Shown: positions 54,470 through 60,853 of the stretch, in pieces
Position numbering within the stretch: the first letter of the stretch is position 1
How the letters are laid out: the number at the start of each line of letters is the position of its first letter
DNA from: a virus
DNA length: 64,000 nucleotides
IMG/VR virus record: IMGVR_UViG_3300008110_000075
Location: 81,368-145,367 of that record
Strand: one strand, 5' to 3'
The notes under the pieces: generated by a model
Databases searched by the model: none
Told to the model about the DNA's origin: nothing
Seen by the model: the letters and a program-made list of their open reading frames with translations, nothing else
Made by a program: the position numbers and the translations under genes

Positions 54470-55162
54470 TTAATTATTTTTAGTCATTGAACCCACAGTT
54501 TTAAGTGCATTCCAATGAGAGTCTGACTTGGATGAACTCGCCCCAATCACAATCCCTTGTCCTCTCCCGACTGAGTTTCCAACAAAAACATTTGAAGCAG
54601 GAACTCCGTTGTTCACAGCATTTCTTACATTATTTTTCGTTTCACTTCCAGCAGCATATGGCTCAATGATGAACAAGTTATTTTTATTTTGACCCAAGAC
54701 ATTTGAAATCTCATTAGATTTCCTGCATCCCGCACTGAAAAGATAAATCGGGATTCCTGGGTTTTTATTGATAAAATCTATAATTGTAGAGGATGGTGTG
54801 TTAAACCTAAAACCTTTAACATTCTTTTCAGTTCCAATCCCCTGTTTCAATAAACTTACTTGTGAATCTATATTTAAGTCACCAGACCTATTATCTAACC
54901 CCCCAACTAAAATTGCATCATACTCACCAGATGTTTTTTGTGATGAGGAACCTTTTCTCACAATTTTCAAACCAAACTCTTGTTCCATCGCACCTCTTGT
55001 CAAAGGTCCTAACTTACCATCCACTCCATCTTTGTTTGGACCATACTTACCCAAATCATACCCCTTTTTTATCAGATACTTTTGTATGATTTCAACATTT
55101 GGGTCATAGGATATTTGTTCTAATAAAAAACCCAATTGTGATTCTTTTAAAATAAATCTCAT
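54470..55162 (-). CDS. Peptidoglycan-binding-domain protein of the neck region
   Basis: A 230-aa protein. Residues about 18-66 are a PG_binding_1-type domain: 'VEIIQKYLIKKGYDLGKYGP' then 'VDGKLGPLTRGAMEQEFGL', with the D-G-x-x-G-P-x-T core. Residues 80-230 read as an alpha/beta domain (YDAILVGGLDNRSGDLNIDS, 'IPIYLFSAGCRKSNEISNVL', NLFIIEPYAAGS, 'VFVGNSVGRGQGIVIGASSS') with a Ser/Gly-rich turn pattern, but no recognisable catalytic triad. It might be a lysis or cell-wall-degrading enzyme, or a virion protein. No holin is visible nearby. The N-terminal MRFILKESQLGFLLEQ helix also looks like targeting sequence seen in other virion proteins here. Confidence 0.6.
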   Translation of the reverse strand: MRFILKESQLGFLLEQISYDPNVEIIQKYLIKKGYDLGKYGPNKDGVDGKLGPLTRGAMEQEFGLKIVRKGSSSQKTSGEYDAILVGGLDNRSGDLNIDSQVSLLKQGIGTEKNVKGFRFNTPSSTIIDFINKNPGIPIYLFSAGCRKSNEISNVLGQNKNNLFIIEPYAAGSETKNNVRNAVNNGVPASNVFVGNSVGRGQGIVIGASSSKSDSHWNALKTVGSMTKNN

Positions 55163-55738: not shown

Positions 55739-56134
55739 ATGGAAATTCAAAGAAATACAAAACTACAAGTAAGAAAAAGTTCAATTCACGGTTGGGGGGT
55801 TTTCGCATGTGAAGACATAAACGAGGGTGAGGTTATTGAAGAGTGTCCGATTCTTAGATTACCTGTTCAAAGAGGAGAAACAAACTACACCTTAATTGAC
55901 TATACATTTGTATTTCCAAAAGGAGAGAATTGGCAAAACCACGTTATTGCTCTTGGATATGGTTCACTATATAACCATTCCGAAAACTATAACGCAACAT
56001 GGGAAGACGATTTGGACAAAGACATTTTAAGATTTAAAGCAACAAAACCAATTTCGAAAGATGAGGAAGTCACAACTTATTATGGTGATGAAAGTTATTG
56101 GTCTGACGGTAGAAGTCACATTGAAGTAAAATGA
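55739..56134 (+). CDS. SET-domain protein (putative lysine methyltransferase)
   Basis: A 131-aa minimal SET domain. Visible in order are HGWGVFACEDINEGEVIEEC (17-36; the SAM-binding G-x-G at the start), GYGSLYNHSENYNATW (73-88; R/N-H-S/C knot motif NHS) and 'KATKPISKDEEVTTYYGDES' (100-119; the E-L-x-x-x-Y catalytic turn, here EVTTYYGD). It has no pre- or post-SET zinc site. SET proteins methylate protein lysines using SAM; in bacteria and phages the targets are mostly unknown. It overlaps the SNF2 gene by 4 bp (ATGA), so they are coexpressed. Confidence 0.82.
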   Translation: MEIQRNTKLQVRKSSIHGWGVFACEDINEGEVIEECPILRLPVQRGETNYTLIDYTFVFPKGENWQNHVIALGYGSLYNHSENYNATWEDDLDKDILRFKATKPISKDEEVTTYYGDESYWSDGRSHIEVK

Positions 56135-58135: not shown

Positions 58136-58162
58136 GAGTTATTTATATAAAACGAATAACTC
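58136..58162 (+). other. Inverted repeat before the SOD-fusion gene
   Basis: GAGTTATT-(11 nt)-AATAACTC is a perfect 8-bp inverted repeat whose left arm and loop carry the TATTTATA motif. It ends 6 nt before ATG 58169 and could act as an operator or a translation-controlling hairpin. Confidence 0.45.
58140..58147 (+). promoter_or_regulatory. TATTTATA sense motif upstream of the SOD-fusion gene
   Basis: TATTTATA on the plus strand 21 nt before the ATG. As a plus-strand gene this is an orientation test for the recurrent motif, and it matches the sense direction. Confidence 0.45.
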
Positions 58163-58168
58163 GCCAAT

Positions 58169-59707
58169 ATGAAAAAAATAGAAGAAAGAATTCAACAAAT
58201 TGAAAAACAAATTACCGAAAACCATATCGAAACAGAAAAACAATTGTTGATTACAGAAATGAAAAAAATTGGAATAGAAAAACTACCCTATTCTTATTCA
58301 GCCCTCAAAGGATTCATCGACGCAGAAACGATGAATTTCCACTACAACAAACACTATAAGGGATATGTAGATAAATTAAATGCCGCCCTGTCAAAGAAAA
58401 AACATGGAGATTTAGACTTAGAAAAAATTGTCAAAAACATTAGTCGATACGACCAAGTAGTAAGGAACAACGCTGGAGGAGCATTCAATCACGCACTTTT
58501 TTGGAATATGTTGTCTCCAACACCAAAAAAATTAACAGGGGAATTGTATAAAAAAATTACCAAAGAATACGGTAGTTTCAATCTATTCAAAAAGAAATTT
58601 GAAACTGTTGCAAAGGATAGATTTGGCTCAGGTTGGGTATGGTTAATTTTAACCTCAAAAAATACTTTGAAAATAATGTCGACACCAAATCAAGACAATC
58701 CACTTATGAATGTTATCGAAGGTGGAGGTTTCCCTCTATTAGGTTTGGACCTTTGGGAACACGCCTACTATTTGAAATACAGAAATAAGAGAGACGAATA
58801 CATTTCAAATTTTTGGAAGGTGGTCAATTGGGATTTTGTTCAGAAACTTTATGAAATGAAAGTTGAAACAAAACTACTAGAGTCGAACAAATTTCAAGGA
58901 ATAATTACTGAATCAAAAGAACCACAATTCTGTAATCCAAAAGAAGTATTGTTCTATAGAGACTTGATTAATAATTACGCAATCAAAAAAAGATATCAGG
59001 AGGGAGTATCCTACGTTCTAAAAAAAGTATTTTCACATTTTTGGGTTGAGGGTAATACTGAAGAGATGTCAGGATTTTATGGTGTAGAATCACCCGAGGG
59101 TAGGTCTATACTCAATAACCTTAATACAAATTTCAATACATTTTGTTTATTGGTAAAAGCAGTAAACAAACAGATTGAATTAATTGGAAGGTCAGAAAAG
59201 AAGTTTGATTTTTCAAAAAAAGAAAAAAGAACTCTAAAGGAAACAACTAGATTTATTTCAGCATTGGACCACTTCAGAAACGAAATCTTTACAGAGAATA
59301 ACGAAGACTTTATCAATATAATCAAAGTCCTTAAAAAACTTTGGGATAGGGGTCAAAAGTCTGAAGACAACGCAATTAAAAAAATAGAAGACTATTTTGA
59401 TGGTAATGCTAAAATTGAAAAGATTGGTTCACATGGTGGAAAACAAGACGCCTTCAAAGGTATTGATGTAAATGTGATTTTAGATGGAAAAAAGTTTTCT
59501 GCACAGGTTAAACCATTCTCTAATGTTTCAATAATCGAGGACAGAGTTAAACTTTTGGATACAGGAAATGTTAAGCATTACGAAGTCGATTGGTATATTT
59601 TTATTAATCCTAAAACAAATAAGATACTTATATTCAAAAACGACCCTATAAGTGATAAAAACCAATATGTCTTCAACGTTAGTTCACTACTACACGAAAT
59701 AGAATAA
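58169..59707 (+). CDS. Superoxide dismutase (Mn/Fe) domain fused to PD-(D/E)XK-like C-terminal domain
   Basis: A 512-aa protein with three parts. Residues 1-36 are a short coiled-coil-like helix. Residues 38-228 are a full Mn/Fe superoxide dismutase domain: LPYSYSALKGFID, NFHYNKHYKGYV, VRNNAGGAFNHALFW, FGSGWVWLIL, LGLDLWEHAYYLKYRNKRDE. All four metal ligands are in place (His58, His108, Asp194, His198). Gly103 and Gln175 (TPNQDNPLM) are the Mn-type second-sphere residues. About 230-400 is helical and unrecognised. About 400-470 has Asp433 (GIDVNVILDG) and Gln446-x-Lys448 (AQVKPF) after a helix with Glu residues, the PD-(D/E)XK pattern with Q in place of E. SOD converts superoxide to peroxide and oxygen. 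The SOD call is firm; the nuclease-like call is inference. Confidence 0.85.
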   Translation: MKKIEERIQQIEKQITENHIETEKQLLITEMKKIGIEKLPYSYSALKGFIDAETMNFHYNKHYKGYVDKLNAALSKKKHGDLDLEKIVKNISRYDQVVRNNAGGAFNHALFWNMLSPTPKKLTGELYKKITKEYGSFNLFKKKFETVAKDRFGSGWVWLILTSKNTLKIMSTPNQDNPLMNVIEGGGFPLLGLDLWEHAYYLKYRNKRDEYISNFWKVVNWDFVQKLYEMKVETKLLESNKFQGIITESKEPQFCNPKEVLFYRDLINNYAIKKRYQEGVSYVLKKVFSHFWVEGNTEEMSGFYGVESPEGRSILNNLNTNFNTFCLLVKAVNKQIELIGRSEKKFDFSKKEKRTLKETTRFISALDHFRNEIFTENNEDFINIIKVLKKLWDRGQKSEDNAIKKIEDYFDGNAKIEKIGSHGGKQDAFKGIDVNVILDGKKFSAQVKPFSNVSIIEDRVKLLDTGNVKHYEVDWYIFINPKTNKILIFKNDPISDKNQYVFNVSSLLHEIE

Positions 59708-59725: not shown

Positions 59726-60853
59726 ATGGCAGCACTACCAGAACCAGAAAGAAGTAAAATTTATACAAGAGTCAAACACTTGTTGGGAGCACCCTTAAGA
59801 AGTGTAGAATTAGAAGACGAAATGATGGACTCGCTAATGGAATTATCTATTGGTGATTATGAAGAATATATTCTACAATGGCTAATCGATTCACAATGGG
59901 TTAACTTAGTAAACCTCAATATGAATGAAAAGTCTGTTGCCAGAGCTTTGGTTACAAGGACAATGGACTTCGAACAACAATTTGCATATTCGTATTCTAA
60001 GATTGTTGGACTTCAGACCGTAGGACCATGGGTCTTGAAGAAAGATTATTTCATAATTGAAAAGAATGTTCAGACATACGAAATACCAGCCAACAGAGAA
60101 GTCAATGAACTTCTTTGGTTTAGTAATCAGGCTTGGACAGCATTCGGACTTGGAGGTCTTGGTGGATTTGGATTCGGTGGTATAGGTTTGGGTGCCAATG
60201 AAGCAGGATACGCTCAGATGGGATACCAAGGTTCTTATTTTATGATGTCTGGTTTTGATTACCTCATCAGAATGCAAGAAGCAAATATCTTGAATAGAAT
60301 TCTCGGTGGTTCTATGACATATAGGATTACCGCATTACCTGATGGTAAAAAGTTGATACACTTGATGAATACCCCTGGTGGTAAATTTAACTGGGCTAAT
60401 TTCAACATGTATGCTGGTAAAGCGGTTTGGTATTGGTATTATGATGTAACACCAGACAGTAGAGCTGATTGTCTTAAAAACAATCCTGACATTATCAAAC
60501 TACCGACTGACGTTCCTCTTGAATCCTTGAGTTGGGAAGATATCAATGTTCCTGGACAACAATGGATAAGAAGATGGTTTACAGCATATTGTAAAGAAAC
60601 CTTAGCAAGAGTGAGAGGTAAATACAGTGGGAATCTTAAGACACCTGATTCTGAAATTACAATGGATTACACCAGTCTTTTAACTGAAGCCAAGGATGAA
60701 AAATCTAAACTGATGGAAGAATTGACGGGCGCTGAAGGATGGCTTACAAGACTAAGACCTGAAAAGGTTATGGAAAGAGAAGCACAAATTGCTGAAAATT
60801 TAAATAAACAAATGAAATTCAGAGCAATGCCTCGTCAAATCTACGTAATCTAA
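59726..60853 (+). CDS. gp13: Neck/connector protein, T4 gp13-like
   Basis: A 375-aa protein (T4 gp13 is 309 aa). The N-terminus RVKHLLGAPLRSVELEDEMM and 'DSLMELSIGDYEEYILQWL' match the gp13 neck pattern 'klGaP...vELed.q...ai..al..y'. The central part has a Gly-rich stretch (GLGGLGGFGFGGIGLG, residues 143-158) not found in T4. The C-terminal 100 residues contain 'WIRRWFTAYCKETLARVRGK', the conserved region that ends this family in marine T4-like phages, where it connects the head to the tail. It follows the SOD-fusion gene closely, on the strand opposite to the other neck genes. Confidence 0.7.
   Translation: MAALPEPERSKIYTRVKHLLGAPLRSVELEDEMMDSLMELSIGDYEEYILQWLIDSQWVNLVNLNMNEKSVARALVTRTMDFEQQFAYSYSKIVGLQTVGPWVLKKDYFIIEKNVQTYEIPANREVNELLWFSNQAWTAFGLGGLGGFGFGGIGLGANEAGYAQMGYQGSYFMMSGFDYLIRMQEANILNRILGGSMTYRITALPDGKKLIHLMNTPGGKFNWANFNMYAGKAVWYWYYDVTPDSRADCLKNNPDIIKLPTDVPLESLSWEDINVPGQQWIRRWFTAYCKETLARVRGKYSGNLKTPDSEITMDYTSLLTEAKDEKSKLMEELTGAEGWLTRLRPEKVMEREAQIAENLNKQMKFRAMPRQIYVI

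Follow-up and report, generated by a model that had tools for sequence, protein, structure and literature searches.

Superoxide dismutases (SODs) are present in the virions of giant eukaryotic viruses (PMC9405923), and Microcystis viruses carry an Fe/Mn SOD as an auxiliary gene (PMC12542629). In phage T4, the protein Alt is cut by gp21 after ITE-6 and LTE-619 (PMC5694885), and in related giant phages the propeptides contain several cleavage sites (PMC9026906). Polyvalent proteins combine several enzymatic domains, are thought to be delivered together with DNA and are in some cases processed before packaging (PMC5512222). The DREN nuclease of SPARDA uses the catalytic set D41/Q60/K62, with Mg bound by D41 and Q60 (PMC12205087). 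Our literature searches, with most subscription journals outside their scope, found no paper on a phage SOD–nuclease fusion, and the word ‘superoxide’ is absent from two jumbo-phage overviews and from the polyvalent-protein paper (PMC5512222).

Such a fusion is encoded in the window analysed here, a 64,000-nucleotide stretch of viral DNA, where a 512-aa open reading frame (ORF) joins a Mn-type SOD to a C-terminal half that is PD-(D/E)XK-like. Its features, and the gene that follows it, are these:

58140–58146, + strand: TATTTAT, putative late-promoter element, beginning 29 nt before the start codon
58169–59707, + strand: the 512-aa ORF
58169–58258, + strand: putative propeptide, a helical N-terminal segment of 30 residues with LITE at its end (predicted helix 2–34)
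58259–58882, + strand: Mn-type superoxide dismutase (residues 31–238 if cut at E30 and E238), the SOD domain proper being residues ~36–230 by Pfam, PDB search, structure comparison (Z 15.3) and invariant ligands
58874–58912, + strand: inter-domain stretch with two [LI]xE sites (E238 codon 58880–58882, E248 codon 58910–58912)
58883–59704, + strand: exchangeable C-terminal half, of which there are two types, the window having type B
58937–59395, + strand: helical region of the C-terminal half (residues ~257–409; model mf38fd6513589, pLDDT 81–98)
59333–59704, + strand: PD-(D/E)XK-type nuclease fold predicted from structure comparison and invariant residues (residues ~389–512)
59465–59467, 59504–59506 and 59510–59512, + strand: catalytic-type codons D433, Q446 and K448 respectively
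59726–60853, + strand: gp13-like head–tail adaptor (Ad2), next gene (PHROG 211, E 1.1e-9)

With Fe/Mn SODs the phage protein shares the whole domain, the four ligands and the Mn-type Gly103 and Gln175, but it differs by a 30-residue front extension and a 280-residue rear half. Like the gp21-cut T4 proteins IPI–III and Alt, it has an N-terminal segment ending in [LI]xE (in 115/115 distinct phage proteins), further [LI]xE sites, gp21 and gp23 in the genome and a late-type context, whereas it differs from them in being an enzyme pair in one chain with putative cut sites between; sequence similarity forms no part of this likeness, and packaging of the fusion is putative. It resembles polyvalent proteins in its several enzymatic domains but is without their hub domains MPTase and ArdC-N, Pfam giving only the SOD domains. 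Polymorphic toxins also pair a constant front (here the SOD) with an exchanged nuclease-type C-terminal half; unlike them, the fusion is without a secretion domain, and only two types were found, with one fold for both.

The first-pass annotation had described the N-terminal half as a complete Mn-type SOD, and this is borne out. Pfam found both Fe/Mn SOD domains in order, Sod_Fe_N at residues 36–116 (1e-22; 80.8 bits versus a cut-off of 27) and Sod_Fe_C at residues 123–226 (1.4e-39; 134.7 bits versus 20.9), and the closest solved proteins in a sequence search of the PDB are SODs, several of them named Mn, with 6gsc as the top match (1.5e-61). NCBIfam scored the fusion at 196 bits for Mn and 167 bits for Fe, neither reaching the cut-off. 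All four metal ligands (H58, H108, D194 and H198) and both Mn-type residues (G103 and Q175) were found in 104/104 distinct proteins, and in a wider check of the ligand motif 112 of 115 passed, the remaining three still keeping the ligands. The full-length model was of moderate quality (mean pLDDT 74.7), with its SOD part matching solved SODs at Z 15.3. We read this half as a Mn-type SOD with intact ligands and predicted enzyme activity. Its cellular relatives are mostly from Bacteroidota (68 of the 80 best) and unfused, their stop-to-stop ORFs being only 202–323 aa long in 80/80, and the 16 fusion SODs placed in a tree formed one clade with full support. The cellular relatives, taken alone, suggest a Bacteroidota host.

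Conservation of the fusion was followed in 276 viral loci, taken from the best 80 matches of each of four contig scans, with repeats, and covering ~189 different contigs, a sampling that disfavours finding unfused copies. Among these matches a single ORF spans the SOD together with 40 or more C-terminal-half residues in 276/276 loci; 7 end at a contig edge and 269 are complete, giving 115 distinct proteins. The halves were thus never separate genes among the loci listed, so that the SOD–nuclease-like fusion proposed in the first-pass annotation is genuine and conserved. An assembly artefact, which had been considered, was rejected on the same 276/276 count among the matches listed. One relative, A0A6J5L953 (BFVD; 501 aa), from an uncultured phage, is annotated ‘superoxide dismutase’. 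The carriers are giant freshwater phages of up to 317–321 kb, and their description as T4-type holds, since the gp21 and gp23 families are each present in 7/7 related records; record G000 is a fragment without the gp21-type protease. The SET, SNF2 and head–tail-adaptor/neck neighbours named earlier were found again: gp13 adjoins the fusion in 49/49 representative loci, and, with some loci too short to hold every neighbour, SNF2 is nearby in 48, a 111-aa ORF in 44, the DNA polymerase in 43, the neck gene in 40 and SET in 16. The SET-domain gene (window 55739–56134, + strand) is a variable neighbour compared with SNF2 (16/49 versus 48/49 loci), mostly at 38–58% identity.

When the C-terminal half was modelled on its own, with 49 diverse sequences as input, the result (mean pLDDT 87.5) was a helix bundle followed by a PD-(D/E)XK-like core. 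What had been called a ‘170-residue helical linker’ corresponds at residues ~257–409 to confidently folded helices (pLDDT 81–98), and that description is to be dropped; the PD-(D/E)XK-like end stands, as the VIA alignment covers residues ~389–512 and the structure check did not yield an unrelated fold. Residues E399, D433, Q446 and K448 are invariant in 115/115 distinct proteins, with D433 and Q446/K448 on adjacent predicted strands (432–438 and 441–449). The top VIA row was the SPARDA DREN nuclease (Z 8.9, rmsd 3.9, 111 aligned), followed by I-Ssp6803I (Z 8.7, rmsd 3.5, 107 aligned) and archaeal Hjc (Z 8.5, rmsd 3.1, 102 aligned), and the first 28 rows, Z 8.9 to 5.1, were all PD-(D/E)XK-type nucleases or RecU/PrfA relatives, a Z just under 9 being slightly above the level that the tool calls common. 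Foldseek matches to the PDB were weak (top E 3.3e-3, prob 1.00; nothing at E ≤ 0.001). None of Pfam’s families scored above cut-off in this half, a search of the PDB by sequence with the C-terminal family profile found no match (best 0.35), and PADLOC and NCBIfam gave nothing above chance level. Below the Pfam cut-offs, weak matches were seen to DUF6602 (22/49 C-terminal halves, best 9e-4), to MC4 of ABC-three-component (ABC-3C) systems (14/49, best 2.5e-5) and to EcoO109I (1/49, 0.019).

The C-terminal end is therefore best described as a modelled PD-(D/E)XK-like fold of the D..QxK kind, for which nuclease activity and a target are predicted. Because DREN uses D41, Q60 and K62, the Gln in D..QxK is no sign of inactivity (PMC12205087). 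Fold class (Z 8.9) and D..QxK set are what the phage protein has in common with DREN (PMC12205087), at 8–13% sequence identity; it differs in having no Argonaute/APAZ partner and a helical region instead.

The 115 distinct proteins fall into two C-terminal types (n = 62 and n = 53, the window belonging to the second), between which C-terminal identity is at most 43.6% while SOD identity reaches 98.4%. The clearest case is the pair of loci L038 and L187, whose bases are ~83–97% identical from upstream through the SOD, ~50% in the C-terminal half and 72–100% through gp13; near-identity stops three codons past E238 and is back just before the gp13 start, so that the block exchanged here begins three codons beyond E238 and ends at the stop. 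The L187 C-terminal half is closest to that of L151 (74.7%), whose SOD is 86.9% identical to that of L187, and this marks L187 as a swap and not as fast drift. L188, on another contig, encodes a protein identical to that of L187. The profile recurs in other between-type pairs, where the flanks are older, and only the L187/L188 exchange is both recent and sharp. On trees of 101 rows, counted irrespective of branch support, the type changed 6 times for SOD, gp13 and SNF2 combined, 9 times for gp13 and 5 times for the SOD, compared with at least 26 changes (mean 33) when labels were shuffled on the combined tree. The nearest SOD belongs to the other type for just 2 of the 115 proteins, indicating that exchange is real but not frequent. 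These comparisons show block exchange next to E238. With the halves exchanged independently and putative cut sites between them, the superoxide-gated nuclease suggested in the first-pass annotation finds no support.

Free-standing versions of the C-terminal half were not found among INPHARED phages (type A query, E 5), where a whole-length query returned 28 records matching in the SOD part only, or among plasmids; in 395 Bacteroidota genomes there was only one weak match to it (E 0.006, in a 47-aa frame), by a method that recovers the phages with E-values of 1e-133 or lower. The half may nevertheless occur without a SOD, since a structure search matched BFVD entry A0A8D9CCA0, an uncharacterised protein of 1113 aa from an uncultured marine phage, which contains a fold resembling the entire C-terminal half (E 2.8e-14, TM 0.73); this is perhaps the same module on another carrier.

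Three [LI]xE sites, at E30, E238 and E248, are kept in 115/115 distinct proteins and are putative prohead-protease sites. At E30, P3 is I or L in 115/115 and the following M31 is invariant; at E238, P3 is L or I in 115/115 and P1′ is S or T; and at E248, P3 is L or I in 108/115 and M in 7, with S, G, A or Q as P1′. The stretch between the halves is variable (residues ~237–256), and the columns flanking E248 are just 42–80% conserved in 104 proteins, so that the E248 motif is retained where little else is. In those 104 proteins, 11 Glu are nearly invariant, and the four with L, I or M two residues before in at least 95% are E30, E238, E248 and E197, the last being part of the SOD active-site stretch. 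A predicted helix contains both E238 and E248. To our knowledge, Met as P1′ at E30 is unusual, and since the columns directly after E30 are also invariant, this residue could serve SOD folding. In gp23 of these same phages the likely maturation site, which we take to be cut by analogy with T4 gp23, reads LINE|ASS in the 6/6 shown, and the [LI]xE sites of the fusion resemble both this LINE|AS and the ITE and LTE of T4 Alt. The three sites are thus conserved, with cutting there putative.

In a 321-kb relative (G002), whose gp21 homologue lies at 107417–108133, the strict motif [LIV][LIVM]xE is 6.5-fold denser in ORF residues 6–45 than elsewhere (35/12024 versus 33/73589) and occurs at the N-terminus in 34/334 ORFs, the fusion included. 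Many small proteins of this relative start with a segment like KIIxLTESDLxxLVxxVIKEQ and ending LxE (L310 and L311, at G002 184801–224300; for example L311:10254–12898) and are perhaps a family of head-targeted cargo. One such example in the window (54470–55162, − strand), whose start (MRFILKESQLGFLLEQ) is rich in LxE, is a putative peptidoglycan-binding protein and was seen in 3/49 loci. By eye, the putative propeptide of the fusion is unlike the KIIxLTESDL-type N-termini of this other candidate cargo. Pfam gave no convincing family for 20 other proteins with N-terminal LxE patterns.

The heptamer TATTTAT upstream of the fusion was analysed in the same relative, where it is 18-fold enriched in the 60 nt before ORFs, 86 of its 108 occurrences beginning 11–30 nt ahead of a start codon, and is commoner before ORFs with the N-terminal motif than before others (21/34 versus 83/300; Fisher p 1.2e-4). 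It precedes the fusion gene in 112/114 family loci. Of the 27 window genes listed, 8 have it within 45 nt, namely two family-less structural ORFs, the baseplate wedge, tube, sheath, neck, gp13 and SOD genes; RNR, DnaB, exonuclease, UvsX, SSB, DNA polymerase, 2OG oxygenase, SET and SNF2 have none within that distance, with more distant copies for RNR (at −60) and the polymerase (at −71). Likewise, gp23 and several other structural or tail genes lack a copy near their start. TATTTAT is thus a candidate late promoter, mainly of structural and LxE-type genes, and late timing of the fusion would follow from that assignment. The prohead-protease-type sites and this late-gene-type upstream element lend indirect support to the earlier suggestion of a virion-borne protein, and the protection of DNA by the SOD that came with it is possible.

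The combination of a constant SOD, an exchangeable nuclease, putative cut sites in front of and between the two and a late-type element is in keeping with a precursor that is packaged in the head and matured by the protease. We consider it somewhat better than an even bet that the fusion is a late polyprotein packaged in the head, where the prohead protease separates a SOD from an exchangeable nuclease, and that both are ejected with the DNA. The course we propose, from propeptide role, packaging, cutting and ejection to late timing, enzyme activities and target, would be as follows. The first 30 residues would act as a propeptide bringing the protein into the prohead core, where a gp21-type protease would cleave after E30 and after E238 and/or E248; the head would then hold a Mn SOD (~31–238) and a separate D..QxK nuclease (~249–512), and both enzymes would enter the host together with the DNA. 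The SOD would be the constant part and the nuclease a variable effector swapped as a block. This course agrees less well with an N-terminal segment unlike that of the other candidate cargo and with the helix predicted around E238 and E248; the Met after E30, the lack of TATTTAT at gp23 and several tail genes, the weak Foldseek matches and the single recent, sharp exchange also count against it. We advance more tentatively the extension of this scheme to a delivery polyprotein in which a constant SOD carries interchangeable nuclease ‘warheads’, the exchange border being the maturation cut site, and in which, after injection of both, the SOD would blunt the oxidative response of the host and the nuclease attack host or rival DNA.

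Less likely, in our view, is a bifunctional enzyme that stays uncut and works in the infected cell, in which the SOD dimer would pair two nuclease domains and the [LI]xE motifs would be structural, superoxide being lowered and DNA processed during infection. The fusion is indeed unsplit in the 276 loci among the matches listed, the E238 and E248 sites fall within a predicted helix, other giant phages have stand-alone SOD genes, and in Microcystis viruses the SOD is interpreted as a redox gene with its action in the host (PMC12542629). Such an enzyme accords poorly, however, with an E248 that is invariant, with L, I or M at P3 and a small P1′, within an otherwise variable stretch, with the late-type upstream element and with the exchange of one half alone.

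That the protein is a virion antioxidant, a head SOD shielding packaged DNA from oxygen radicals with a C-terminal half that is mainly a DNA anchor, seems to us improbable: an anchor would need none of the D, Q and K kept in 115/115 and would be freed by the putative cut sites, even if SOD is among the virion proteins of giant eukaryotic viruses (PMC9405923) and radical stress would be plausible in sunlit freshwater. We give equally little credence to a resolvase- or packaging-type nuclease for the phage’s own DNA with an incidental SOD, for which the Hjc-type resolvases at Z 8.5, the gp13 gene adjacent in 49/49 loci and the nearby neck gene could be cited, since between types the neighbours are ~80–85% identical versus ~37% for the C-terminal half, unlike a housekeeping gene, and we know of no counterpart of the helical region and the fusion among known resolvases.

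If the reading as a head-packaged, protease-cut precursor is right, an antioxidant enzyme and a nuclease would be carried into the cell as one precursor and separated at head maturation. The capsid would then serve as a redox-enzyme delivery device in bacteria, as is known for giant eukaryotic viruses, and exchange of the nuclease cargo at a protease site would provide a simple rule for reshuffling injected effectors.
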